Shown here in pieces: positions 16,042-31,664 of a DNA stretch of 39,349 bases. The first letter of the stretch is position 1. The number at the start of each line of letters is the position of its first letter. Origin of the DNA: an uncultured beta proteobacterium. GTDB lineage: Bacteria; Pseudomonadota; Gammaproteobacteria; Burkholderiales; Burkholderiaceae. The position numbers were made by a program, and so were the translations under genes. The notes below the pieces were generated by a model. The model was not told the DNA's origin. It made no database searches and was given only the letters and a program-made list of their open reading frames with translations. The stretch spans positions 1 to 39,349 of the forward strand of contig CAIMOW010000004.1 of the NCBI GenBank assembly GCA_903843235.1, given 5' to 3'.

Positions 16042-17873
16042 TGTGCGGAATTGTTGGCGCTATTTCCTATACAAACATTGTTGATGTTTTAGTTGAGGGC
16101 TTACGTCGCCTGGAGTATCGTGGTTATGATTCTTGTGGTTTTGCAGTGATCAATAGCGGCGATGCTCAGCATCGCATTGAAAGAGCTCGCACTACAGCGC
16201 GCGTTGCAGAATTAGCGGAGCAGGGCAAAGATTTTCATGGAACGCTCGGGATTGCTCATACTCGTTGGGCTACACATGGCAAGCCAGATACCCAAAATGC
16301 CCACCCTCATATTTCTAATAGCTTGATTGCAGTTGTTCACAATGGCATCATTGAGAACTACGAATCACTTCGTGCGGAGTTAAAAGCGGCTGGTTATGTG
16401 TTTAGCTCAGAGACTGATACGGAAGTGATTGCCCATTTAGTGCATCAACAATATTTAGCAAGTGGCCAAAAAGATTTGGCGGCATCCGTAAGGGCTGTAC
16501 TGCCTAAGTTGCATGGTGCGTATGCCATTGGGGTGATTGCACAAGACAGACCTGAGTTATTGGTTGGCGCTCGAGCTGGCTCTCCTTTGGTTGTGGCGCT
16601 AGGCGATCAAGAAAACTTTTTAGCTTCAGATGCCTTGGCATTGGCGGGTAGAGCTCACTCTATGATGTATTTGGAGGAAGGCGATGTTGCAACCCTTAAA
16701 GCAGGCGCAGTAGAAATTATTGATCAAGCTGGTAAAACCGTGCAGCGTGAGAGCAAGGCAATGCCTGCTCAATCAGAGGCTGTTGATTTGGGCCCATATC
16801 AGCACTACATGCAAAAAGAAATCTTTGAGCAGCCTAGAGCGATTGGCGATACTCTTGCGAATATTGCGGAATTTGGTCCAGAACTCTTTGATGCCAGCCT
16901 AGAAGATTGGAAGTCTTTTGATCAGATTTTGATTCTGGCTTGCGGTACCAGTTATTACTCTGCTTGTGTTGCCAAGTATTGGTTGGAAGATATTGCCGGC
17001 ATTCCGACACAAGTTGAGATTGCTAGTGAGTACCGTTATCGCAACACTGTTTCAAATCCCAATACCCTCATCGTAGTAGTTTCTCAATCTGGTGAGACTG
17101 CAGATACCTTGGCAGCATTGCGTCATGCCAAGAGCTTGGGTCATCGTTTTACCTTAGCCATTTGCAATGTGGCTAGTAGCGCAATGGTTCGTGAAACTGC
17201 TTGGCACTTTTTGACTAAGGCAGGCGCCGAGATTGGCGTTGCCTCTACAAAAGCATTTACTACTCAATTGCTAGCTCTTTACATATTAGCGGTTTCTATT
17301 GCCAAGCGTGCTGGCAAGATTTCTGCTGAAAAAGAAAAAGAGCTGTTACGCGAGTTGCGCCATCTACCAAAAGCACTTCATGCGGTTTTAGCGCTAGAGC
17401 CACAGATCATTGCTTGGAGTGAGGCATTCTCTAAATGCGAAAACGCTTTGTTCTTGGGGCGTGGATTGCACTACCCAATTGCATTAGAGGGTGCTCTCAA
17501 ACTTAAAGAGATTTCGTATATTCATGCTGAAGCTTATCCTGCTGGAGAGTTAAAGCATGGCCCACTCGCATTGGTGACAGATAAGATGCCGGTGGTTACT
17601 GTTGCTCCAAATGACATCTTATTGGAAAAACTCAAATCCAATATGCAAGAAGTTAAAGCACGTGGCGGCAAGCTTTATGTCTTTGCCGACCAAGATACAG
17701 AGATAGTCAGCAGCGAGGGCATCAACGTGATTCGTTTGCCAGAGCACTATGGTAACCTTTCCCCAATTTTGCACGTGGTTCCGCTGCAACTGTTGGCGTA
17801 TCACACAGCCTGCGCTAGAGGAACTGACGTAGATAAGCCAAGAAATTTGGCGAAGAGCGTTACGGTGGAGTAA
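16041..17873 (+). CDS. glmS: Glutamine-fructose-6-phosphate aminotransferase
   Basis: [23 protein letters not shown]-terminus [13 protein letters not shown]. Confidence 0.98.
17858..17873 (+). repeat. Left att-like direct repeat (3' end of glmS)
   Basis: CGTTACGGTGGAGTAA; 15/16 match to 31649-31664. Confidence 0.8.
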
Positions 17874-17941: not shown

Positions 17942-18190
17942 TTGATGATTGGAGCTTATTCAGATTACCAAATCGAGCTATCAAATAAAGTCCTTTATTT
18001 AAGGGACTCTCTTAAGCTTACTTACAAGGCGATAGCAGAGTTTTTAATTGATAAGGGATATAGGTCGCCCCGAGGATATGATCTAAGCTCTGAGAGCGTA
18101 TTTTCAATCTACAAGAAGCGAAAAATACGAGATGTTAGATTACAGGCTCCGCCACAAATAAGGCTAGAGAATATCAAGATTATTAATTAG
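17942..18190 (+). CDS. Small HTH-like protein resembling the C-terminal DNA-binding part of serine recombinases
   Basis: LTYKAIAEFLIDKGYRSPRGYDLSSESVFSIYKKRK resembles the helix-turn-helix pattern of recombinase-domain proteins. Confidence 0.55.
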   Translation: MMIGAYSDYQIELSNKVLYLRDSLKLTYKAIAEFLIDKGYRSPRGYDLSSESVFSIYKKRKIRDVRLQAPPQIRLENIKIIN

Positions 18191-18601: not shown

Positions 18602-18975
18602 GTTAAGGCGAGCTGTGTCACCCTTAACGACAGCCAGTAGTGTCAATAGTCGTACTGGCGGCTCACATTCACTTGGCTTTCTTTGTCACAGGAAGTCACA
18701 TTGTTTTGGCGGGAAGCGAGTCGCCTTCCTAAAATCCAGTAGCGTCTGTCCTCGTACTGGAGCCAATTTCTAATGCTAATATGTATATAGCTTCGTAAAC
18801 GGCTGGAGCGAGTCTTACTTAAATGTGAGCTTTCCAGATTGTCCTGCGAGGTTTTTTCATTTGTATTGCTACACAGCAAACTATTGATTACTATGTTTTG
18901 GTAGGCTTGTTCCCGTTTCGCACGTTGGGAAGGGCGGTAAGGAGCAATCCTTTGGCATTCTTCGCTCAAGCCTAC
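18602..18975. other. Noncoding hairpin-rich region (origin or structured-RNA candidate)
   Basis: At least five inverted repeats: 18602-18628, 18633-18659, 18712-18729, 18735-18761, 18901-18975; no convincing ORF. Confidence 0.6.
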
Positions 18976-19020: not shown

Positions 19021-19209
19021 TTAGGGCTCTGGGAAATAGTGAACTCCTTGATATTCGATTGCTTCAGGGTTTCGATCAGCTTTTCCTTGCTGATAAACAT
19101 TCCCGACTTCTGTGCTTCCTTGATTAGTTGATTTGACATTCTTTTCTTCCTTTTTCTTTTTGGGTTTCTTGGCTTCTTCTTTTAGCCATTCCTTAAAACT
19201 AAGCATCAA
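19021..19209 (-). CDS. Small Lys-rich hypothetical protein
   Basis: 62 aa, start codon overlaps the stop of the RHH ORF; FKEWLKEEAKKPKKKKEEK. Confidence 0.45.
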   Translation of the reverse strand: MMLSFKEWLKEEAKKPKKKKEEKNVKSTNQGSTEVGNVYQQGKADRNPEAIEYQGVHYFPEP

Positions 19210-19400
19210 AACATCTCCTTTCGAGCCTTCTGAAAATTCTCCGAATTATTAAAGTGCTCGTTAAAAAACTTCTTTAAACAGTACCTAATTACTTCAGAGC
19301 GGTTGTAACCCAGTCTTTCACATAAACCATCAAACTTATTGATAAATTCATTAGTAGTTCGTATTCCTAACATTTGATTCCTACCGACCTTGTTGTTCAC
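19206..19400 (-). CDS. Putative ribbon-helix-helix (CopG/Arc-like) DNA-binding protein
   Basis: MLGIRTTNEFINKFDGLCERLGYNRSEVIRYCLKKFFNEHF: beta-strand plus two-helix RHH pattern. Confidence 0.6.
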   Translation of the reverse strand: MNNKVGRNQMLGIRTTNEFINKFDGLCERLGYNRSEVIRYCLKKFFNEHFNNSENFQKARKEMF

Positions 19401-19447: not shown

Positions 19448-20032
19448 TTAGCAAAACGAGAGGTCATTTATGTCCTTCCCCTTGTTCATATAGTTAACCC
19501 AAGAAAAAGCCTCATCAAGCCTGAGTGGTTCAATCTTGTATGTTGAAACTGTTGAAATTGAACGAAGATCTTTTGAAAGCCGTTTATCAAGCTCATTGGA
19601 TTGATGGTTATAGAGGCGATTGGCTAATGGAGCCTGAATAGCTATTAAGCCGTGTATATGATGAGGTGAATTAGAGCTAGGAATGGGCTTAAAGAAGCTC
19701 CCTTGTTCATATTCATATTGAGCGTAAGCGATAGGTAAAACCAAGTTCCATTTTGAACTAGATCTACTAAGCCTTTTCTTGATCTTGACCAGCACTCTTT
19801 TTCGATACTCATAGAGGGTTCTTAAACTCATCCCGTTGCTAGTCTCGTAAGGTATTAGATCTTTAAAAGTAACGGTAGTAGTAAAACAAGCCCACTCAAC
19901 AGAGTTAGTTACCCACTCTAATTCTTTGTAATTAAGATTCTTCTGCTGGTTATTGGATTTGGTAACTATCTCTTGACCATATCTTCTGTTGTATTCGGTA
20001 TTTGGTAAGTCTTCAATTCTTCTTATAAACAT
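19448..20032 (-). CDS. Putative HUH endonuclease / rolling-circle replication initiator
   Basis: Motif I-like FTTTVTF, motif II HHIHGLIAI (HUH), motif III NYMNKGKD (YxxK), in the expected order. Confidence 0.65.
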   Translation of the reverse strand: MFIRRIEDLPNTEYNRRYGQEIVTKSNNQQKNLNYKELEWVTNSVEWACFTTTVTFKDLIPYETSNGMSLRTLYEYRKRVLVKIKKRLSRSSSKWNLVLPIAYAQYEYEQGSFFKPIPSSNSPHHIHGLIAIQAPLANRLYNHQSNELDKRLSKDLRSISTVSTYKIEPLRLDEAFSWVNYMNKGKDINDLSFC

Positions 20033-20164
20033 AGTTCAGCTTTCTATAGGTGTAATGGGGCTTATCACTAATAAGGTCAATAAAAAAGGAGTCACAAACA
20101 AGGCGACTTTCACAGAGTTCACGGAAGGGTGAGACCACGCTTAGCGTTCGTAAAACTATTTAGT

Positions 20165-20191
20165 CAAAAAAAGACCTCCAACAGGAGGTCT
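20165..20191 (-). terminator. Intrinsic terminator downstream of the clamp operon
   Basis: Minus strand AGACCTCC-TGTT-GGAGGTCT-TTTTTT; perfect 8-bp stem and U-tract. Confidence 0.85.
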
Positions 20192-20209
20192 CATAAAATA
20201 TATTTCTAG

Positions 20210-20905
20210 TTAAATAGGGTTTTCAACAGCTACGAAATAGGTAGCCTTTTTCTTCTTACAAGAAAACTTAGATAACTTCTTGGTAGAAAAATAAACCATA
20301 TAGTCATCTTTAAGCAGGTTGAGCTTTTCAAGATTAATCATAAATTTGAAGACCTGAGATGAATCCCCAATCCTTACCCTTAAGACATTGTTTGCTAGGG
20401 TTCTAGATTCCTGAACTTGAGCAATGATTTCCTGACCGTTACCCTCAAAAACAAGATAGTTAAAGGAGGTAGTTTTAGCCTTTGTCTTGCTAGCCTTGTG
20501 ATCGGTCTTATTCATCACTTTGAAATACTTAATAATCTGCTCAAATTTTTCTGAGCTTAGTTCAAAAGAATATTCATATTCAGGTTGGACTAAAGGACGC
20601 TCAGGGACCTTCAATAAAGACTTATCAGTAAAAGCGAAGATCATTTCTGAATCTTGACCAATAATTGATAGGCTATTTTCAGCAAAGGTAATGGAGGGCT
20701 CCTTTAAGGAATTCATTCCGTTAACTACCTTAGATAAGTCGTAGATTCCTGCTTCCATTGGAATTTCATTGTCAAAGACTACTTCAGCCATTCTTGATTT
20801 ACTTTCATCAAAGGTACGCTGAATTGTTCCCTTATTAAATAGAAAGTTCTTGTTAATGACGGACATATTTTCAAGTAATTCAGTTGTTTGTTTTGTGATT
20901 TTCAT
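20210..20905 (-). CDS. Phage T4 gp45-like DNA polymerase sliding clamp
   Basis: MKITKQTTELLENMSVINKNFLFNKGTIQRT parallels T4 gp45 MKLSKDTTALLKNFATINSGIMLKSGQFIMTR (from memory); C-terminal FKFMINLEKLNLLKDDYMVYFSTKK...YFVAVE parallels FNFIINMANMKMQPGNYKLLLWAKGK...YVVALE. Confidence 0.8.
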   Translation of the reverse strand: MKITKQTTELLENMSVINKNFLFNKGTIQRTFDESKSRMAEVVFDNEIPMEAGIYDLSKVVNGMNSLKEPSITFAENSLSIIGQDSEMIFAFTDKSLLKVPERPLVQPEYEYSFELSSEKFEQIIKYFKVMNKTDHKASKTKAKTTSFNYLVFEGNGQEIIAQVQESRTLANNVLRVRIGDSSQVFKFMINLEKLNLLKDDYMVYFSTKKLSKFSCKKKKATYFVAVENPI

Positions 20906-20916
20906 AATTAAGTTCC

Positions 20917-21531
20917 TTAGTTCATTAGTTCAAGTTGAAGTGTTTTAACCATCCGTCGTAAGTCAGGAAAGGTCTTTTGGATAATGCTATTAATGATGCT
21001 TTTATCGGGATTGGTATACCCCTCAGCCTCACATATAAAACAGAGACGCTCGGCTATTACCTGAATCATTTCTTCCGAATAGGTCATATCAAAACTTATA
21101 GGAATAAATCTTGATCTGACTGCTTCAGATAAACAGTTAGGATCATTAGCCGTTAGAACAAAGTCGTTATAAAGCGATAATTCTTCTGATACCCCTCTGA
21201 TTGCTGCTTGAGCGTCTACTGATAAGTTGTCCGCTTCATCCAGCAAAAGAAGCCTTCGCCCACCAGTTACCATTCCTGAAGCAAATTCGCTTTCAATCCA
21301 TCGGATAGTGTCTATTGAATTGTTTGTAGAGCAATTAATAAACACCGTATTCTCAGGATTGATCAACTTAGCAACAGTTGTCTTCCCACACCCAGGACGC
21401 CCATAAAAAAGGAGAGAAATACCCCCTCTTTGATTGACAACTTGATTCAGTTTGTTTTTCAAGCCCGAAGACAAGATCACATCCTGAATGGTTGATGGTC
21501 TATATCGCTGACCCCAATCGAGTTCTCTCAT
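20917..21531 (-). CDS. T4 gp44-like AAA+ clamp-loader subunit lacking the collar domain
   Basis: QRYRPSTIQDVIL (gp44 QKYRPSTIDECIL), Walker A GRPGCGKTTVAK, Walker B LLLLDEAD, sensor LTAND, AVRSRF, ends at FPDLRRMVKTLQLELMN (gp44 FPDFRKTIGELDS). SD AAGGAG 6 nt before ATG at 21531. Confidence 0.82.
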   Translation of the reverse strand: MRELDWGQRYRPSTIQDVILSSGLKNKLNQVVNQRGGISLLFYGRPGCGKTTVAKLINPENTVFINCSTNNSIDTIRWIESEFASGMVTGGRRLLLLDEADNLSVDAQAAIRGVSEELSLYNDFVLTANDPNCLSEAVRSRFIPISFDMTYSEEMIQVIAERLCFICEAEGYTNPDKSIINSIIQKTFPDLRRMVKTLQLELMN

Positions 21532-21541
21532 ATTCATCTCC

Positions 21542-22177
21542 TTAAGCAGCAAGAGCCATCGGTGGCTTAATAGCCTCAACAAGATCAGGAGACATAACCA
21601 CCCTCACATTGAGTGCTTTAAGACTGTCGATAATTGATTGAATATGAGACTTACGACTAAGGTCATTGAGCTGACCAACATCACACACAAAGCAAAGACC
21701 ATTAAGCGTTCCAGATGGAACCTCGGTCTTTATCTCTGAGCTGATTTTTTCCTCAACAGGACTATCTGATTGAGGCTTTAAAAGGGATTCAATTTGAGAC
21801 CCTAAAACATTTTGATGAATTAAGCCCTGTTTGATGAACTCTGCTAATTGCTCATTGGTTAATCGAGCGATTTGATAAAGCGTTGTCCAGTTATTAGGGA
21901 GGTATTGAGCCTGAGTCTTTAAAGCCAAATAGGATTTACCTATCCGGGCTAGCTTCTTAATAGAGCTTGACTTAGGTTTAAACCCAATCCCTTCACAGAA
22001 ACTTTCAAAGTCTTTGGGGCTCTCTTTGCTCTTACTTTTCGTTTCACAGACGACTCGACCCATTTCTAGGATGTTTTCCGCTGTTTTTCGAGCGTAAGCC
22101 TTAAATTCAGCTACCGAGCTATCTACAAAAGATACGGAGTAATCATTTGATAAACTGTTAACATCTAAGCTATTCAT
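21542..22177 (-). CDS. Hypothetical protein, first gene of the clamp/loader operon
   Basis: Stop abuts the SD of the loader gene; helical sequence (FCEGIGFKPKSSSIKKLARIGKSYLAL...LTNEQLAEFIKQG). Confidence 0.6.
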   Translation of the reverse strand: MNSLDVNSLSNDYSVSFVDSSVAEFKAYARKTAENILEMGRVVCETKSKSKESPKDFESFCEGIGFKPKSSSIKKLARIGKSYLALKTQAQYLPNNWTTLYQIARLTNEQLAEFIKQGLIHQNVLGSQIESLLKPQSDSPVEEKISSEIKTEVPSGTLNGLCFVCDVGQLNDLSRKSHIQSIIDSLKALNVRVVMSPDLVEAIKPPMALAA

Positions 22178-22320: not shown

Positions 22321-23043
22321 ATGAAAAAAATTAGAAAAGACCCTCCAAGACACTTTCCTTATCAACATCCCACCTTTGGGACGGACAAGAAACCTAAAGC
22401 CTCTTTTTATTGGAAGGAGACGGTCTATTACTTTTGGTGGGAGTACTTAAGGCGTAACGAGGATTACCTAAAAACTTGTGAAAGTAATGGGGCTGGAAAG
22501 TACGCCGATCTTTATAAAGATTTCGGTGATGTAAGAGACCCAGACTTTAAAGTTTGGTGGAGCCAAGGAAATAGGGGGGCTTTGCTATTTTCAAATCCCA
22601 TAACCGAAGACCAAGTTACAGAGCTGAGTGATGGTGAAAAAGCATTTGTGGATGAAGATAGGCTAGTAATTAGCGTTCCGCTTAACCTCCCTCAAAAATT
22701 TCTCATTCAAAAAATCAGAAAGTTGATAGAGGCGAAGCATAAGGGCGACAAAGGAAGACAGTACGCCAAGGTAAGTAAGGCTAAGTATCGCTTTAAGGGT
22801 CAACCAAATATCAAAGCCTTAAAACTAGGTCTGGATGTATACGACAAAATCAAAAATAACCCAAACAAAAAACTTTGGGAAATAGGAATGACATTACCCC
22901 AGTTCCATTTGGAACTCGAAGAGTATCAAAGAGGTATTGAACCCGAGTTCACTCAAAGAAGGGTTATGGCTTCTACTGTCAGTAGATATGAAAAAAGAGT
23001 TCGAGATTCAATAAAAAATACGACTCTCGGATTATTCCCTTGA
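22321..23043 (+). CDS. Conserved mobile-element hypothetical protein
   Basis: Divergent to the clamp operon; YYFWWEYLRRNEDYLKTCE, FGDVRDPDFKVWW, KGDKGRQYAKVSKAKY blocks resemble a family I recall from proteobacterial islands; no assigned function. Confidence 0.6.
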   Translation: MKKIRKDPPRHFPYQHPTFGTDKKPKASFYWKETVYYFWWEYLRRNEDYLKTCESNGAGKYADLYKDFGDVRDPDFKVWWSQGNRGALLFSNPITEDQVTELSDGEKAFVDEDRLVISVPLNLPQKFLIQKIRKLIEAKHKGDKGRQYAKVSKAKYRFKGQPNIKALKLGLDVYDKIKNNPNKKLWEIGMTLPQFHLELEEYQRGIEPEFTQRRVMASTVSRYEKRVRDSIKNTTLGLFP

Positions 23044-23478
23044 TGATTTTTGCTGAAACTCTTTAATCATCGAGAGATAAAGTAGCGAGTTATAGACAAC
23101 TTCTGAGCTATGTTTACCCAACATCGTGACAATTAGTGGTATATTGATTCCACCCTGAAACTCCCAATAATCCCAATGGAAAAATTGGTCATCAGACACT
23201 TCATCAAAGTAATCATTAAAACGCCATCCTTGTCCTCTCAGCTTGAGAGTCTTTCCCGACTTTATTTTTCCCCAATTTGATGGAGAAATTCGAATGGTAG
23301 GTAAACCCCATTCATAGGAATGATCAGCACTAACAAAGGCTCCAGTCGGGACTGGTTTGGATTTATGTAAAAGTTGTTTTCTAATCTTAACGATTTCAAC
23401 TTGATTCTTTAGGGCGATCTTGTGAACAGCATTCACTTTCTCAAGCAAGACTTTTAGTAGCTTATTTGTTGTTTCCAT
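23032..23478 (-). CDS. Hypothetical protein translationally overlapping the type III res gene
   Basis: 148 aa, start lies inside res; N-terminal coiled-coil-like segment. Confidence 0.55.
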   Translation of the reverse strand: METTNKLLKVLLEKVNAVHKIALKNQVEIVKIRKQLLHKSKPVPTGAFVSADHSYEWGLPTIRISPSNWGKIKSGKTLKLRGQGWRFNDYFDEVSDDQFFHWDYWEFQGGINIPLIVTMLGKHSSEVVYNSLLYLSMIKEFQQKSSRE

Positions 23479-26119
23479 CTGAAGTAGGATTTAGTAGCTC
23501 ATTAAACCCAGATTCAAATTCAGACATTCTGAGTTCACTATTAAAGAATGGAAGACCCCAAACAACATACTGTTTATTTTGAAAAAGCTGCTCTATCTTG
23601 AAGTTATCTTTAATGCTGGTGAGGAAATGCTCCTTCCATTCATCAGCCTTCAACAGATGTTGACCTTTCGGCTCAATGAAGACTTGGTAATGAATGGTAT
23701 CAGAATCATTTTTCCCAATTAGGTATAGAACAAAATCTGGCTCTAGAGGTCTACCATCTGAAAAATTATATAGTTGAAAGTGCTTTTCATTTCTAAAGAG
23801 GTATACATCAGAATAGTTCTCTTTTAAAACATCATACTTTTTGTCAATAAACTTTATTAAAAGTTTTTCCTCGGAAGTACCGAAGCAGTCATTAAAAATA
23901 TACCATTCTTTAGAATTCAAATTTAGATGATAGAGGTTAGTAGCCTCAATTGGGTCATTCATTGAGCGACTAAATTGCTTATCTTCGCCTTCACCAACTG
24001 TAAAGTTCATAGTCTTATCAGTAAATACTGACTTGATCATATGAGGAAAAAATTCTTTCGTACCCTTAAATTCAATTTTTTCAGAAGCGATTATTGAAGA
24101 TAAATCCAAAAGAACTTTTGAAGAAATGTAGAGCTTTTGATCAGGAGTCAGGTTATTAACTTCGGAGGCTAATCCCGTAACTTCAATTTTGATATTTAAA
24201 AGATAGTTTGGTGAAGTTAAGAGTTCCTCAACAGAGCTTAAGTTAGGAAGATGTTTCTTAAGGTTACTAAACTCGTAAAAGCTAATTTTATGAATTGATT
24301 TACGAATAACAGCAGAGCCAAAATCCATTAAGTTGTAATCTTGAGACTTCCTTTCAATTCCAGCGGAACTTACTTTATTAGTTTCAAACGCTGATGAGGT
24401 GTTAATGTAGCCAGTCGATAGATCAATTTTATGGCGTTGGTTTATGAGGCTGCTATCAATACCTTGAATATCTGATCGGTCATATTTAATTCTTGAATTT
24501 AAGAAAATATGACCAACTTTGTATAGTTCTGTCGATTTAAAGCTGTCCTTAATAAGCAATTCCTTTTGAATGCTTGTTTTGGGGACGATACCAATATCTT
24601 GTAGAGCCATACTTAATTCTTGTATGTATTTCGGATTATGAGCACTGTGATAGTAAAGCTCTTCACATACTTTCATATCGTGCTCTACATCCGAATCAAA
24701 TTTTCTTTGTGATCTAGGCTGATCAGCGCTTAGTTGAAATGGACAATATCTTGCTCCACGCCCGATAAGTTGAGCTTCACTGATAGTGGTTTTACCTGCT
24801 TTATTTGACTTGGCGTCTCTAGTGTCATAAAGCCTAACAATGTCAAATAGATTGAGAACATCCCAACCTTCATTAAGTTTATCAACAGCAAAAACAGCAC
24901 GATAGTGGTTGTCCTCATCTTCTAGACTATTAACAGCCAGTTGCTTGAGGTCGCTCTCTTCTTTACTATTAACTGAGAGTAAGTTATCTATTGAAAAATC
25001 TACTGTAATTTCCGAAATAAGATTTTCATAAGAAATATTATTTAAGTCTAGATAGTTGAAAAGTTTGATAAAGATTGGATCTAATGTCGACGATCTCAGT
25101 AGGCTAATATCATTGGGAGTTAAGCCCTTCAGCCGATTGGTAAATTCTTCAAAGAAGCTTTTGCTTTCAGCAATCGTTTTAGATTTGAAGAGTACGACAG
25201 GTTTAATTGGTAGCCTATTCTTTTCAAATATTTTTCTTCTATATTGACTCAGAAGAATAGCAAGCAAAGATCTGTCGAATGGTGGTAGATCTGCTTGAAG
25301 TACCTTCACCTCTTTGGAGTATCCATCCTTCCTAAATTCTTTGAGAGGGTAATCAAAGAGAAGTCTAGGTTTATATTTTTCCGCCAAGAAGGTATCTTGA
25401 AGGTCTACCGTAGCTGTGTATTCTAAAAGAATATTTTCAGGATTTGCTTTGAAAATTTTCTCAACAGTTCCCTCCCAGCTTATAACTTCAAATAGTTCAT
25501 CTTGAGATAAATTCTTTGTACCCTTTTTTGTTTCTGAGTTAATGTGATGAGCTTCATCAGAAATTAGAACTATCTTAGTATTTTCAAAATCATCATAAGT
25601 TAAGGAATTTTCTTTTGGGTTATTCAGGGTCATATGAAGACCTTGAATAGTTGAAAAAACCAAATTTATATCATCTGGATTTGATGACTGAAAATTTTCA
25701 ACCTCATTTATTTTTATTCGTTTGTCGTTTAGAGATACTGATTCAGCAAATAGGAACTTAGATGAAATGGAGTTAAGAAAGTTTTCTCTAGTTTTATCAA
25801 TAATGTTTGTGCTGTTTACAAAAAATAAAAAATTTCTATAACCTAATTTATAGAGATATAGAATTGTCCCAGCCATTATTAGAGTCTTACCGCTACCAGT
25901 AGCCATATGAAAAAGTAACTGATGATTCTGACGAGGCTTTCCATCAAAGCTTTCCTCAAAATAATTAACTAGATACTGGAAAGCCTTTTCTTGATATGGT
26001 CTTATCGGAAGCTTTGGATTTAGATTGCTTGAAAGCACGACTGGAAGAGGCGTGTTTTCTATTTTTCTCTTTCCCAACTCCTCAATCAATAATTGGAATA
26101 ACGGTTTGATATCACTCAT
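23462..26119 (-). CDS. res: Type III restriction endonuclease subunit
   Basis: Walker A MATGSGKTLIMAG, ISDEAHHIN, IGRGARYCPF, C-terminal PD-ExK-like EPDFVLYLIGK...FIEPKGQ. Confidence 0.92.
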   Translation of the reverse strand: MSDIKPLFQLLIEELGKRKIENTPLPVVLSSNLNPKLPIRPYQEKAFQYLVNYFEESFDGKPRQNHQLLFHMATGSGKTLIMAGTILYLYKLGYRNFLFFVNSTNIIDKTRENFLNSISSKFLFAESVSLNDKRIKINEVENFQSSNPDDINLVFSTIQGLHMTLNNPKENSLTYDDFENTKIVLISDEAHHINSETKKGTKNLSQDELFEVISWEGTVEKIFKANPENILLEYTATVDLQDTFLAEKYKPRLLFDYPLKEFRKDGYSKEVKVLQADLPPFDRSLLAILLSQYRRKIFEKNRLPIKPVVLFKSKTIAESKSFFEEFTNRLKGLTPNDISLLRSSTLDPIFIKLFNYLDLNNISYENLISEITVDFSIDNLLSVNSKEESDLKQLAVNSLEDEDNHYRAVFAVDKLNEGWDVLNLFDIVRLYDTRDAKSNKAGKTTISEAQLIGRGARYCPFQLSADQPRSQRKFDSDVEHDMKVCEELYYHSAHNPKYIQELSMALQDIGIVPKTSIQKELLIKDSFKSTELYKVGHIFLNSRIKYDRSDIQGIDSSLINQRHKIDLSTGYINTSSAFETNKVSSAGIERKSQDYNLMDFGSAVIRKSIHKISFYEFSNLKKHLPNLSSVEELLTSPNYLLNIKIEVTGLASEVNNLTPDQKLYISSKVLLDLSSIIASEKIEFKGTKEFFPHMIKSVFTDKTMNFTVGEGEDKQFSRSMNDPIEATNLYHLNLNSKEWYIFNDCFGTSEEKLLIKFIDKKYDVLKENYSDVYLFRNEKHFQLYNFSDGRPLEPDFVLYLIGKNDSDTIHYQVFIEPKGQHLLKADEWKEHFLTSIKDNFKIEQLFQNKQYVVWGLPFFNSELRMSEFESGFNELLNPTSDGNNK

Positions 26120-28083
26120 TTGTTTAAGCCGAAAAATTCGGTATTAAGCTTTTTGTCTTCCTGACTTACTTTAAAGGATTGATCTTCTATTTCAGATAGG
26201 GGGACATAGAGCATATTCTTATCAAGAACCTCTATGAGAAACTTTTTTTGATCTTCAAATTGGAGTTTTTCAAATTGATCTATATTTTGATCAAAATTTT
26301 GTGGAATTATTTTGTAAGAAATAAAGGCTTTTTCTTGAATTTCATTCCAGATACCAATGAGTTCTTTTGTAGATGTGCTTAGTATGATTTTTTCAACATA
26401 GATCTCATTAAGCTTTAATAGCTCACACGCTATGAAACTTCCACCTCTATCCCACTCAAGATTTTTGGAAACCCCAGTTTGATCACCTGAGACTACATTT
26501 TTTAATCTTTCAAGAGCATCATTCTTACCGTAATCCAATTGCTCAATACCAATGTAGCGTCTTCCCATCTTATGGGCTACAGCAGCAGTCGTTCCACTTC
26601 CAAGATGAAAGTCTAAAACTGTATCGCCTTCAGTAGAGCCAAGCTCTATGATTCTGTGTATAAACTTTTCAGGTTTTTTACCCTTCCGTAGGGTAACTCC
26701 ACCTTCATTGTGAATATCGTTGGGTAAAACATCATCCCAGATATCTGAAATCATTTCACCGAAAACATCTTTACCATCAACTTGAATCAGCCTATCTTTA
26801 AAGAAGAGAATGGCGTCACCCTTGTAAAGGTAGTAGGTTGATTTACCTTCTCTTTCTAAGATGTATGTTTTAGTGTTGTCTTCCTTTGAAATTTTCTTAA
26901 GTTGTTTTATTTTATCCGACACGCTACTTTCGTCTAGACCAGCAAAACGAATAATTTTCTCTTTGTTTTCGAAATAAAACTTCTCAAGCTCAAGCTCGTA
27001 AGACTCTCCGAAATGTTTTTTTATTTGAGATTTTTTCATTCCCAAGTGTTCTGAGAATGCTTCTAGAGCAGGTATGTATTCCCAGTTCTCCGGATTAGAG
27101 TCGATATTTTTGATGTAATTGTTATATCGTGTATCCCTATCTTTTTCCCTATAAGTTTTATTGGGTTTCCATTGGTTAGAATTCTTGGAATAAATTAGAA
27201 GGAACTCAGAAACATTGACAACACCTGGATTAATTACTTTGGCTCCTGATACGGAGCTTCTTTTTACGGTAACAATATTTTTTTGATTTTCTTGACCGAA
27301 AATTTCATTCATTAAAACAATCAAGTGTCCAATTTCATTCTGATCAATAGAAATAAAAATTGATCCATCTTCCCTCAAAAGCTCTTTGGCTACTGACAAT
27401 CTATTTTTCATAAATGTCAGCCAAGTTGATTGATTAAAGCTATCGTTGTAGCCGAACCCATCGTTACCAGTATTGTAGGGGGGGTCGATGTAAATAAGTT
27501 TGATGCTCTTTTTAAGTTTTTTATTCAGAGTATGAAGGACTAATAAATTATTTCCTCTGATTAGTAAATTGTCTGAGTCTGAAATCGAGGTAACTTTTTC
27601 TTCACCATTTTCAGAAAATTTACGAAAATGACTTAACACCTTAGGCGATAGGAGGCGATCAATTTGATCGGGGGCTAAGGTTTCATTCCAAAAGATTTCA
27701 GTTCGCTTAGCATCTTCTTTTGACTGTCCACCTTCCAAAACACAGTCTTTATAAGCCCAAGACAGAACTACGCTCTCTGATTTAGATATAAATCCTGATT
27801 CATCGGTTAATCCGATTTTGTTATTAAATTCGGTATAGCTATCGGGTAGGAACTGCTTATTGCTAATAAAACGCTGAAATTTAATCTTGTCAAAAACAAG
27901 TGTTGTGTCGACCTTTTGAAAGAAGGTATTTTTGATTTCTTCATTATTTAAAAGAAGCTTTAAAAAAATCGGATCAAGAGAAAGGGCTGCTTCTACGATT
28001 ACATTTTTTAGCAAATGTCCGTCTGATACATATCTTTCTTCTTTCGAAAGTATGTCAATTAAGTTATCTAATATATTTTTCAT
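26116..28083 (-). CDS. mod: Type III modification DNA methyltransferase, beta-class N6-adenine
   Basis: IYIDPPYNTGNDGFGYNDSF (DPPY motif IV) followed later by LDFHLGSGTTAAVAHKMGRRYIGIE (motif I). Confidence 0.93.
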   Translation of the reverse strand: MKNILDNLIDILSKEERYVSDGHLLKNVIVEAALSLDPIFLKLLLNNEEIKNTFFQKVDTTLVFDKIKFQRFISNKQFLPDSYTEFNNKIGLTDESGFISKSESVVLSWAYKDCVLEGGQSKEDAKRTEIFWNETLAPDQIDRLLSPKVLSHFRKFSENGEEKVTSISDSDNLLIRGNNLLVLHTLNKKLKKSIKLIYIDPPYNTGNDGFGYNDSFNQSTWLTFMKNRLSVAKELLREDGSIFISIDQNEIGHLIVLMNEIFGQENQKNIVTVKRSSVSGAKVINPGVVNVSEFLLIYSKNSNQWKPNKTYREKDRDTRYNNYIKNIDSNPENWEYIPALEAFSEHLGMKKSQIKKHFGESYELELEKFYFENKEKIIRFAGLDESSVSDKIKQLKKISKEDNTKTYILEREGKSTYYLYKGDAILFFKDRLIQVDGKDVFGEMISDIWDDVLPNDIHNEGGVTLRKGKKPEKFIHRIIELGSTEGDTVLDFHLGSGTTAAVAHKMGRRYIGIEQLDYGKNDALERLKNVVSGDQTGVSKNLEWDRGGSFIACELLKLNEIYVEKIILSTSTKELIGIWNEIQEKAFISYKIIPQNFDQNIDQFEKLQFEDQKKFLIEVLDKNMLYVPLSEIEDQSFKVSQEDKKLNTEFFGLNK

Positions 28084-28283: not shown

Positions 28284-28937
28284 ATGGGAATTTACGGCTA
28301 TGTGAGGGTCAGCACTCTTCAACAAGCAAATGAAGGCGAGAGTCTAGACACTCAGCTTAGACAAATTCAGTCTTACTCGGTACTAAAGGGGTACGACATT
28401 CCTCTAGAGAATTACATCACCGAAAGGGGTGTTAGCGGAAGCCTAGAGTTTGAGAAGCGTCCTGAAGGCGGAAAACTCTTTGAGCAGCTTGTTTCAGGGG
28501 ATGTATTGATTTTTTCCAAGCTAGATAGAGCCTTTAGGAATACCCGAAACGCTTTAAACACTCTCCACGAGTTAAAACTAAGAGGCGTATCTGTTCATTT
28601 CATAGATTTAGGTGGTGATGTAACTAATGACGGAATCGGATCCGTGATCTTTACGATCCTTTCAGCCTTCGCTACCTTTGAGCGTGAGCGTATAGCGACT
28701 CGTATTCGGGAGGTTAAGCAGGTTCAAAAGTGTGATGGAAAGTTTTTAGGTGGATTCACTAGGTTTGGCTATAAGGTAGAAGACGCTCGCTTAATCCCAA
28801 AACCTGAAGAGCAATTGATCATTAGGGAAATGAAAGATATGAAAAGGCGAGGTATGAGCTTAAGAAGGATCTCAGCTTGGCTTAATAAAGCTCACGGAGT
28901 CCAAATGTCCCACTCAACCGTATCGACATTTATCTAG
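28284..28937 (+). CDS. Serine recombinase (resolvase/invertase family)
   Basis: YGYVRVSTLQQANEGESLDTQ, SKLDRAFRNTRNAL, ATFERERIATRIREV, C-terminal HTH; SD AGGAGG. Confidence 0.9.
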   Translation: MGIYGYVRVSTLQQANEGESLDTQLRQIQSYSVLKGYDIPLENYITERGVSGSLEFEKRPEGGKLFEQLVSGDVLIFSKLDRAFRNTRNALNTLHELKLRGVSVHFIDLGGDVTNDGIGSVIFTILSAFATFERERIATRIREVKQVQKCDGKFLGGFTRFGYKVEDARLIPKPEEQLIIREMKDMKRRGMSLRRISAWLNKAHGVQMSHSTVSTFI

Positions 28938-29225: not shown

Positions 29226-29873
29226 TCAATTAGTGAGCTTAGGAGCAAAGCGATCAATCAAGGATACAAATAGCTGTTCAGCTTCCTCGAAAGTTTTGAA
29301 TTCAACCCCACCTTTTGAAAGACCAATTTCCTCGTCTTTTTCAAGATGCTCTCTAAGTTCTGAAATATGAACAAAATTATCAATAGCCGTTTCAGGGGCG
29401 AAGACTTGGTAGCGAACGGTATCAACATCCCTATCGTGATAAATGATGCTAATTAAAGCAAATACATCGTCTTTTAGCCGATACGATATATACCTATCGA
29501 AAGCAACTAACCCATTTTTTTGTGCTCCACCAGTCTTAGCTCCACCAGATTTAGATAGCAAAGAATGTGGTTTGAAGCGTTTCGTACCTTCCGATAACTG
29601 CTTGGCTGTTGTTGGAGATAAGTCATATATGTCTAATAAGCGACGACCTAATTTTTCCATCTTGTTACAAACTTCTTTTTCTAGCTTTCTAACCAAGCTA
29701 GATTTAACTGGTTTTGGCGGAGGTGGCGGTGGACGCTTTTCTAGTTCGGAGTTGACGAGATCAAGTAGATCAAACACTTCATTTCTAGTAGCTTTCTCCT
29801 TCATATCAACTAGCTGTGAGTATGAAAAAGCAATTACTTGCTCAGGAGTGTAAGGATTCTTAAATTTACCCAT
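29226..29873 (-). CDS. Hypothetical protein with polyproline linker, divergent to large recombinase
   Basis: MGKFKNPYTPEQVIAFSYSQLVDMKEKATRNEVFDLLDLVNSELEKRPPPPPPKP...; upstream Met choice avoids overlap with the recombinase start. Confidence 0.5.
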   Translation of the reverse strand: MGKFKNPYTPEQVIAFSYSQLVDMKEKATRNEVFDLLDLVNSELEKRPPPPPPKPVKSSLVRKLEKEVCNKMEKLGRRLLDIYDLSPTTAKQLSEGTKRFKPHSLLSKSGGAKTGGAQKNGLVAFDRYISYRLKDDVFALISIIYHDRDVDTVRYQVFAPETAIDNFVHISELREHLEKDEEIGLSKGGVEFKTFEEAEQLFVSLIDRFAPKLTN

Positions 29874-29937
29874 TGATTTTAAAAAATATTGATAAAGAAT
29901 AAGATAACAATAACCGAAAAAATACGTAATTAGAATA

Positions 29938-31629
29938 GTGGTAATGGCTTTAAGAAAAATAACTAAATCTGACCCAAACAAGACCCTTCACATTTACACA
30001 AGGGTCTCTACTGCTGCTCAAGCAGATAAAGGGACTTCGCTTGATACCCAACTTCAATGGGGTATTAAAAGAGCGAAACAGCTTAAATTTGGATATAAAC
30101 ATTGGGATGAAGGCGGAAAGAGTTCACACCACGAAGATATACAAGGTCGCCCAGTTTTATTTGAGCTTTTTCAGGGAATAAAAGCTGGAGATATAAAGCA
30201 CTTATGGATATACGATCAGTCACGACTATCAAGAAATGATCAGGTAGCTTCGCTGTTCCGTTACGAGTGTAATAAACAAGGTGTGACGCTTTATACGAAA
30301 GATGGTCAATTAGACTTGTCAAATCCATCGGATATGTTTCTAAAACAAATCTTTGATGCTGTTGCTGGATTGGATAATGCTACTAGAGCAGAAAGAACTC
30401 GATTAGGAAAATTAAATCGAGTGGCTCAAGGATTTTGGAGTGGAGGTCCACCACCTTTTGGATATAAGCTGGTTGCTAAAAAATTAGTGCTAGAAAAAAG
30501 CGAATCAGCTTGGGTTAAAAAGATATTCACTATGTCTGTAAAGGGCGTAAGCACAGTAGAGATCAAAAAAACTCTTGATTCAAAAGGCGTGATTCCAAGA
30601 AGGGGTAGGGGTCTTTGGACTTTAGGTTCAATACAGGCTTTACTTAAAAACACACATTACAAAGGCTCTTATAGCTACCAAGATAAAAAAAGTAAAAAGA
30701 AAATAGAAATCAAATGTCCAGCAATCGTTGATGAAACAACTTGGATGGCTGTTCAAAAAATCAAGACCAGAAAAACAAGTCGTGTATCTCAGCAAAACAG
30801 AACAAGCCACTTTTACTTGTTAAGAGATTTAATGGTGTGTGGACATTGTGGACGATTTATGTCGGGTAGACGGAATGTAAATAAAAATGAAGCCCTTTAT
30901 TACTGTCCAAATAAAGAGCGTAATTGGGTAAATGAAGGTGGGACAAAAACCCCTTGGAAAAGAGGCGAAGGTTGTGGAATGGAAAGGTCACTTAACATTC
31001 CCGAAACGGATCAACTTGTATTTCAAACTGTTACAGACATTCATAAAGAATCAAGCACGCTCAAAGAAGAGGTTAAATGGAAGATTCTTAAAGAGAACAA
31101 TGCTCCTTTAGCTAAAACTGAGGAAGATATAAAGTTGCTTGAGAGAACGCTAAAAAAACAACATAAAGAATTGGATAACGCTAAGCAAGCTCAAGCCGAT
31201 TTAGTTCTCAGCCATCACTCAGGTGAAATCAAGGCTGATATCTATAAAAGAGCGTTTCAGAACTCAAAAGATAGGGTTAATGAGCTTGAAATATTGATAG
31301 CCAATACACAGCTTCAACTCAAAGGAAATGTAGATAACAAAAAGTGGGTTGATTGGGTAAGGCTATATGGTCAGCAAATTAACAATAAAAAAGAGCTTTC
31401 GGACGAAGAAAAGAAGACTTACTTGGCTGGATTGATAGAAACGATCTCTGTTAAGTACATTAAGGATCAGGGTGAGCACGAGCTAACAATCCAATTTAAT
31501 TTACCAATTGTTAAAGACTCGGTGAAATGGAATGACCCCGAAAACAGGCGAAAAGGCTATAAGGTAATAAAGGGTAAAAGAACGACTACGGTTCAGGTCA
31601 AAAAAAAGATCCTCGCTGGACAAAGGTGA
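29938..31629 (+). CDS. Large serine recombinase / integrase with zinc-ribbon and coiled coil
   Basis: IYTRVSTAAQADKGTSLDTQ, DQSRLSRNDQ, recombinase domain PPFGYKL..., zinc ribbon CGHCGRFMSG...YYCPNK...GCGM, coiled coil; stop codon touches the right inverted repeat. Confidence 0.92.
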   Translation: MVMALRKITKSDPNKTLHIYTRVSTAAQADKGTSLDTQLQWGIKRAKQLKFGYKHWDEGGKSSHHEDIQGRPVLFELFQGIKAGDIKHLWIYDQSRLSRNDQVASLFRYECNKQGVTLYTKDGQLDLSNPSDMFLKQIFDAVAGLDNATRAERTRLGKLNRVAQGFWSGGPPPFGYKLVAKKLVLEKSESAWVKKIFTMSVKGVSTVEIKKTLDSKGVIPRRGRGLWTLGSIQALLKNTHYKGSYSYQDKKSKKKIEIKCPAIVDETTWMAVQKIKTRKTSRVSQQNRTSHFYLLRDLMVCGHCGRFMSGRRNVNKNEALYYCPNKERNWVNEGGTKTPWKRGEGCGMERSLNIPETDQLVFQTVTDIHKESSTLKEEVKWKILKENNAPLAKTEEDIKLLERTLKKQHKELDNAKQAQADLVLSHHSGEIKADIYKRAFQNSKDRVNELEILIANTQLQLKGNVDNKKWVDWVRLYGQQINNKKELSDEEKKTYLAGLIETISVKYIKDQGEHELTIQFNLPIVKDSVKWNDPENRRKGYKVIKGKRTTTVQVKKKILAGQR

Positions 31630-31648: not shown

Positions 31649-31664
31649 CGTTACGGTCGAGTAA
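31649..31664 (+). repeat. Right att-like direct repeat, duplicate of the glmS 3' end
   Basis: CGTTACGGTCGAGTAA; TCC GTT ACG GTC GAG TAA encodes S-V-T-V-E-stop. Confidence 0.8.

Follow-up and report, generated by a model that had tools for sequence, protein, structure and literature searches.

The window, a 39,349-nucleotide stretch of DNA from an uncultured freshwater betaproteobacterium, is chromosomal, with glmS on its left and an efflux operon on its right. Between them lies a 13.8-kb island. At each of its ends stands a 16-nt sequence from the 3′ end of glmS, and the two copies differ at one position. In a sister genome (G015) the site is empty, and its matches to the two flanks overlap by 19 nt. 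Related islands show the same pattern of attachment repeats, and in three of them the integrase open reading frame (ORF) ends in VTVE, as glmS does. The repeats and the empty site show the island to be a serine-integrase element, inserted precisely into the 3′ end of glmS, and not a prophage remnant. Its features, in coordinates of the window, are as follows.

17858–17873, no strand: left attachment repeat at the glmS 3′ end, CGTTACGGTGGAGTAA, repeated at both ends
17942–18190, plus: 82-aa ORF immediately within the left end and retained by several glmS islands
19206–19400, minus: 64-aa ribbon–helix–helix (RHH) protein that may repress the HUH gene (matches to RHH-type profiles at E = 1e-5 or worse)
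19448–20032, minus: P0004, with Rep-like HUH motifs, a putative replication initiator or nickase (three conserved motifs, ferredoxin-like model)
20145–20162, minus: island-specific motif TAAATAGTTTTACGAACG upstream of the HUH gene; candidate origin site or RHH operator
20171–20192, minus: intrinsic terminator closing the P0003–loader–clamp operon (9-pair stem, then a T run)
20210–20905, minus: P0001, gp45-type sliding clamp, 231 aa (profile matches, PDB match, AlphaFold model, Foldseek)
20917–21531, minus: P0002, gp44-type AAA+ ATPase without a collar, 204 aa (PHROG 168, T4 gp44 match, collar count)
21542–22177, minus: P0003, first gene of the operon, occurring with every listed loader
22321–23043, plus: 240-aa backbone protein, pointing away from the operon; it weakly resembles a proteobacterial regulator domain
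23032–23478, minus: 148-aa protein, common to the G064 island
23462–26119, minus: type III restriction enzyme, cargo (PADLOC REase_III, E = 4e-125)
26116–28083, minus: type III methyltransferase, cargo (PADLOC MTase_III, E = 7e-180)
28284–28937, plus: small serine resolvase (PF00239, E = 1.5e-30), in most related islands
29226–29981, minus: 251-aa conserved backbone protein
29938–31629, plus: large serine integrase (PF00239, PF07508, PF13408; PHROG 95, E = 2e-73)
31649–31664, no strand: right attachment repeat, CGTTACGGTCGAGTAA, repeated at both ends

The 82-aa ORF weakly resembles the DNA-binding portion of serine recombinases. In the gene-poor left part of the island, two 25-nt near-repeats (18634–18760; 80% identical, 102 bp apart) each have inverted CCAGTA/TACTGG ends. 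Near its 3′ end (31590–31629) the integrase ORF departs from the frame of its relatives at an A run and ends in KKKILAGQR, where the relatives continue into the attachment repeat; the change is either a genuine frameshift or an assembly error at the homopolymer.

The operon runs P0003–loader–clamp with gaps of 10 bp and 11 bp; the loader SD, TTAAGGAGATGAATATG, overlaps the P0003 stop and the clamp SD, CTAAGGAACTTAATTATG, overlaps the loader stop. An earlier note, made from the sequence alone, had described a T4-like clamp and minimal clamp loader in a bacterial integrative island. Both ORFs lie where it placed them on the minus strand, the SD/stop overlaps that it reported are present in the sequence, and the integrase, attachment repeats and empty site in G015 bear out the island. 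Its two coupled genes are indeed coupled, but the operon has a third gene, P0003. Profile searches (including Pfam and PHROGs) recognised no gp62, gp43, primase or replicative helicase in the island, in agreement with the note, and Rfam gave no RNA family within it. No family-B polymerase was found in the five host genomes searched. The window's own genome is a 162-contig, 86%-complete assembly; G064, a Polynucleobacter genome with the same gene pair, is a single contig.

P0001 matches PHROG 223 over the full length of the profile (positions 1–218 of 222, E = 1.9e-36), scores 32.7 bits against Pfam gp45-slide_C (PF09116; cut-off 25) and matches T4/RB69 gp45 of the PDB by sequence (E ~1e-8). 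AlphaFold, supplied with relatives from islands and phages, predicts a two-domain clamp fold (pLDDT 86, pTM 0.82): the best PDB match of the model in Foldseek is T4 gp45 (E = 1.6e-17, TM 0.85), followed by PCNA rings. By sequence and predicted fold, P0001 is a member of the gp45 family. The clamp assignment in the earlier note, which came with structure prediction as its proposed check, holds. The E-values and the fold rule out chance similarity. At about residues 132–147 (20465–20510), P0001 has a lysine-rich, low-confidence insertion behind the central helix that is missing from the G064 clamp and from the aligned phage clamps.

P0002 matches PHROG 168 (E = 2.7e-46) and T4 gp44 (E = 9e-20), but over the AAA+ part only; the gp44 alignment stops at residue ~210 of 319. 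Beyond the AAA+ core there are 0–3 residues in all five listed island loaders, against 96–111 in 86 complete viral ORFs. The C-terminal domains of clamp loaders form a tight pentameric collar that keeps the subunits as a ring (PMC3331839); this collar domain is absent from P0002 and the other listed island loaders (five copies compared), and its absence from five genomes rules out a truncation in one assembly. P0002 keeps Walker A, Walker B, sensor 1, the SRF arginine finger and sensor 2 in the alignment, and its Q108 is conserved and aligns with T4 gp44 Q118, the residue highlighted by deep mutagenesis of T4 (PMC8121543). Judged by these motifs, the ATPase looks competent. By sequence it is related to gp44; we do not class it with the standard gp44/62 loaders because it lacks two defining features, the collar and gp62, of which no A-subunit-like counterpart was recognised among the island ORFs (Pfam, PHROGs). 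The gp44-like part of the minimal loader claimed earlier thus stands through the AAA+ match, but ‘minimal’ understates a protein without a collar.

Downstream of the operon, the P0004 family carries the motifs F-x-x-T-x-x-F, P-H-[HN]-[IV]-H-like (in nearly all rows) and W-x-x-Y-x-x-K. The Rep-type motifs 1, 2 (HUH) and 3 (Tyr with Lys) are conserved columns in ten sequences, and the copy in L103, a Polynucleobacter island without the loader, has them too. Profile searches matched the family to no known family model. The predicted structure is ferredoxin-like; against a viral library its matches include CRESS and microvirus Rep with weak scores, and against the PDB they are other proteins. P0004 is thus a likely Rep-type HUH nuclease. 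No HUH relatives were found in the phages or viral contigs searched. The RHH gene follows the HUH gene in four of the five listed loader islands (window, G064, Zwartia and Rhodoferax) and in L103. The C-terminal tails of the HUH proteins in the clamp-bearing islands read DINDLSFC, NPETDWFV and SLSELTV (about 19448–19475 in the window), and four HUH-only islands have short HUH ends, KGKS[IV]. It is conceivable that the tails are clamp-binding peptides; they differ between islands and the cases are few.

Between the operon terminator and the HUH gene sits the motif TAAATAGTTTTACGAACG. Its pattern, TAAATAGTTNTACGNNCG, has four matches in 186 genomes, every one upstream of the HUH genes of these islands, and a looser form, TAAATAGTNNNACG, lies upstream of the HUH gene in eight islands. 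Because the core, ACTAAATAGT, is a palindrome except at its centre and recurs in full or in part ahead of the RHH gene in several islands, the motif may be an RHH operator, a replication site or both. A T4-late promoter, TATAAATA, is not favoured as the conserved signal upstream of the HUH gene, since what stays constant is TAAATAGTNNNACG, and TATAAATA is missing from this position in the clamp islands.

Relatives came from a search with the loader alignment; a search of genome contigs with the clamp alone gave none. Among the matches listed, at least five loader-bearing islands lie at glmS, counting that of the window: the others are in G064, Zwartia panacis (L006), a Rhodoferax MAG (L007) and Polynucleobacter 30F-ANTBAC (L008, the same contig as G112). 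These five share one architecture and one integration site, and T4 structural genes were not seen in them. In each, the loader module sits between the 240-aa gene and the HUH gene, P0003 is present and a HUH-motif protein follows the operon. The clamp is present in three (window, Zwartia and G064) and absent from both the island and the rest of the genome in Rhodoferax and 30F-ANTBAC. The cargo of the relatives comprises type ISP/IIG restriction, Zorya or other defence-like genes. Six further islands, all from Polynucleobacter, carry the HUH gene but lack P0003, the loader and the clamp, which argues that the HUH gene is the older core and the module an addition. This wider HUH-gene family (L103–L108, from Polynucleobacter G154, G086, G069, G120, G007 and G045) occurs at glmS and elsewhere, in most cases accompanied by the 240-aa protein or the resolvase, and its defence cargo is varied (Zorya in L103). 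A 136–143-aa protein follows the loader in G064 (L004:18362–18793), alongside the clamp, and in 30F-ANTBAC (L008:10614–11024), alone; the two copies are 51% identical.

Genes of the gp45 family occur in 2 of 186 genomes of the genus, and samples of 399 genomes of the family and 369 of the class held only that of the window itself; they are very rare in bacterial genomes. A plasmid search gave no relatives of the clamp or the HUH protein, and plasmid matches to the loader were RFC or DnaX-like proteins instead. The gene pair for which the earlier note had suggested a neighbourhood search is also in the G064 and Zwartia islands. The polymerase and gp62 remnants that, by its account, would mark a decayed T4-like prophage were looked for in the island and not found, and such a prophage is ruled out: there are no other T4 genes, and several islands are conserved.

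In a tree that includes archaeal RFC, the island loaders cluster with phage gp44 (100/99) as a single clade (100/100), and the listed loaders stay together in a bigger tree that contains 94 viral rows; the three island clamps are likewise one clade (98/90). This phylogeny, another of the proposed checks, does not fix the exact phage sister of the island loaders, because their branches are long and the program warns that these meet. Within the loader tree the window pairs with Zwartia and G064 with 30F-ANTBAC, a pairing that makes two losses of the clamp more probable than three gains. Between islands the clamps are 27–32% identical and the loaders 51–66%. Lower conservation of the clamp is also usual among phages at equal loader distance, and the island pairs are low yet within the phage range (33–108 of 745–797 matched phage pairs are as low), so accelerated clamp evolution is unsupported. 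The clamp shows no signs of decay and no clear acceleration; judged from these identities, its rate is roughly phage-like.

These data suggest that a mobile element took over part of a viral DNA-copying machine. We put at roughly one in two the probability that the island is a glmS-targeting integrative element with its own replication or maintenance module, to which a T4-type loader and clamp have been recruited. In support are the operon structure, the sequence and fold of the clamp, its phage-like divergence, the kept ATPase motifs and the position of the module, together with the HUH motifs, the RHH partner, the island-specific motif, and the insertion with its empty site. Against it are the two of five listed relatives without a clamp, a HUH assignment made from motifs and weak fold matches, and a search for a partner polymerase that found none. 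Of the ideas in the earlier note, recruitment of a polymerase to replicate the element agrees best with the anatomy.

On this preferred reading the element would excise, and the HUH protein would nick an origin near the island-specific motif, giving rolling-circle-type synthesis. The RHH protein may repress the HUH gene, much as CopG represses RepB in small plasmids. The ATPase, for which P0003 might do the assembling that a collar does elsewhere, would load the clamp at the primer junctions of the element, and the clamp would tether a host enzyme or an element protein, aiding copying or second-strand synthesis. As two relatives have no clamp, the ATPase and P0003 must be useful without it, perhaps on the host clamp. 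With no family-B polymerase in the five host genomes, the clamp's partners would be host enzymes or the polymerase of an incoming phage, or the clamp would serve as a platform.

That clamp is of the type used by gp43, which raises the alternative of a phage satellite: a T4-like phage would trigger the element, whose own initiator, loader and clamp would draw gp43 to its origin. The polymerase missing from the element and not found in the five host genomes would fit, as would the T4-like viral contigs with related clamps and loaders that are plentiful in the viral collection. There is a precedent in kind in PLE, which has its own RepA and redirects the ICP1 machinery (PMC9040626). We nevertheless consider a satellite unlikely, because no capsid-remodelling or packaging genes were recognised in the island, its clamp is only ~30% identical to phage clamps, the T4-late-type TATAAATA is missing upstream of the HUH gene in the clamp islands, and two listed relatives have no clamp. 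The distribution of the clamp (three of the five listed islands, against five of five for P0003 with the ATPase) and the loss of the collar could instead mean that the ATPase was reused, forming with P0003 a switch that sits on DNA and controls the HUH protein or the recombinases, while the clamp became an accessory platform that is being lost. This is a similarly doubtful reading, as the clamp is intact, gene-coupled to the ATPase and predicted to keep the gp45 fold in a lineage that shares ~30% identity with its neighbour.

The same collar-less ATPase could be dominant-negative, and most related islands carry defence systems, so that the operon might be an anti-phage decoy in which clamp and ATPase poison T4-like phages at their replisome or in late transcription. 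The operon lies, however, in the conserved backbone outside the variable defence cargo, the ATPase retains all catalytic motifs and marked acceleration of clamp evolution is not seen; we rate a decoy as less probable than either of the preceding alternatives. Least credible by far is a chance-captured fragment of a T4-like phage without function. The great rarity of gp45-family genes in bacterial genomes would suit such passengers, but the genes are intact and coupled, their order is conserved across several genera, loaders and clamps form one clade each, and there are no other T4 genes.

A bolder version of the preferred reading, possible but on balance to be doubted, is that a non-viral mobile element owns a T4-derived clamp system, in which a collar-less ATPase, assembled by P0003 as a new partner where other loaders have a collar and gp62, loads a gp45-type clamp for HUH-initiated replication by a non-native polymerase. 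If true, this would be a new clamp-loader architecture, and the clamp system would be neither viral nor that of a cell chromosome. A pentameric collar holds the known clamp loaders together, so a natural collar-less loader, with catalytic motifs conserved and retained with a clamp in several lineages, offers a test of the purpose of the collar. Parts of a T4-type replisome in a bacterial mobile element that lacks the polymerase also bear on the transfer of such machines between viruses and mobile elements, and on the question of whether clamps can work with foreign polymerases. A search of openly readable papers turned up no description of an integrative element with a gp45/gp44 pair.

Compared with T4 gp45 (PHROG 223, PF09116), P0001 has a full-length sequence match and the same predicted fold (TM 0.85), but identity is ~20–30% and the island clamp belongs to a bacterial integrative element that has no gp43, gp62, gp33 or gp55. 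The island order is loader then clamp, whereas the phages read here have clamp then loader. With the T4 gp44/gp62 loader (PHROG 168), the island loader shares the AAA+ core and catalytic motifs, and it clusters with phage gp44, not archaeal RFC; it differs in that none of the five listed copies has a collar, gp62 is lacking and the gene is coupled to P0003. The Vibrio PLE satellites are similar by analogy, as integrated elements that have their own initiator and no polymerase, but their proteins are unrelated, and phage dependence would be conjecture for the island. The pMV158 type is a rolling-circle replicon with CopG–RepB copy control. The island recalls it in having a putative HUH initiator beside an RHH protein, with a candidate cis site upstream; it differs in being chromosomal, in a HUH protein without a known family model and in the added clamp and ATPase. 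By this analogy, the element looks like a copy-controlled rolling-circle replicon in integrated form.
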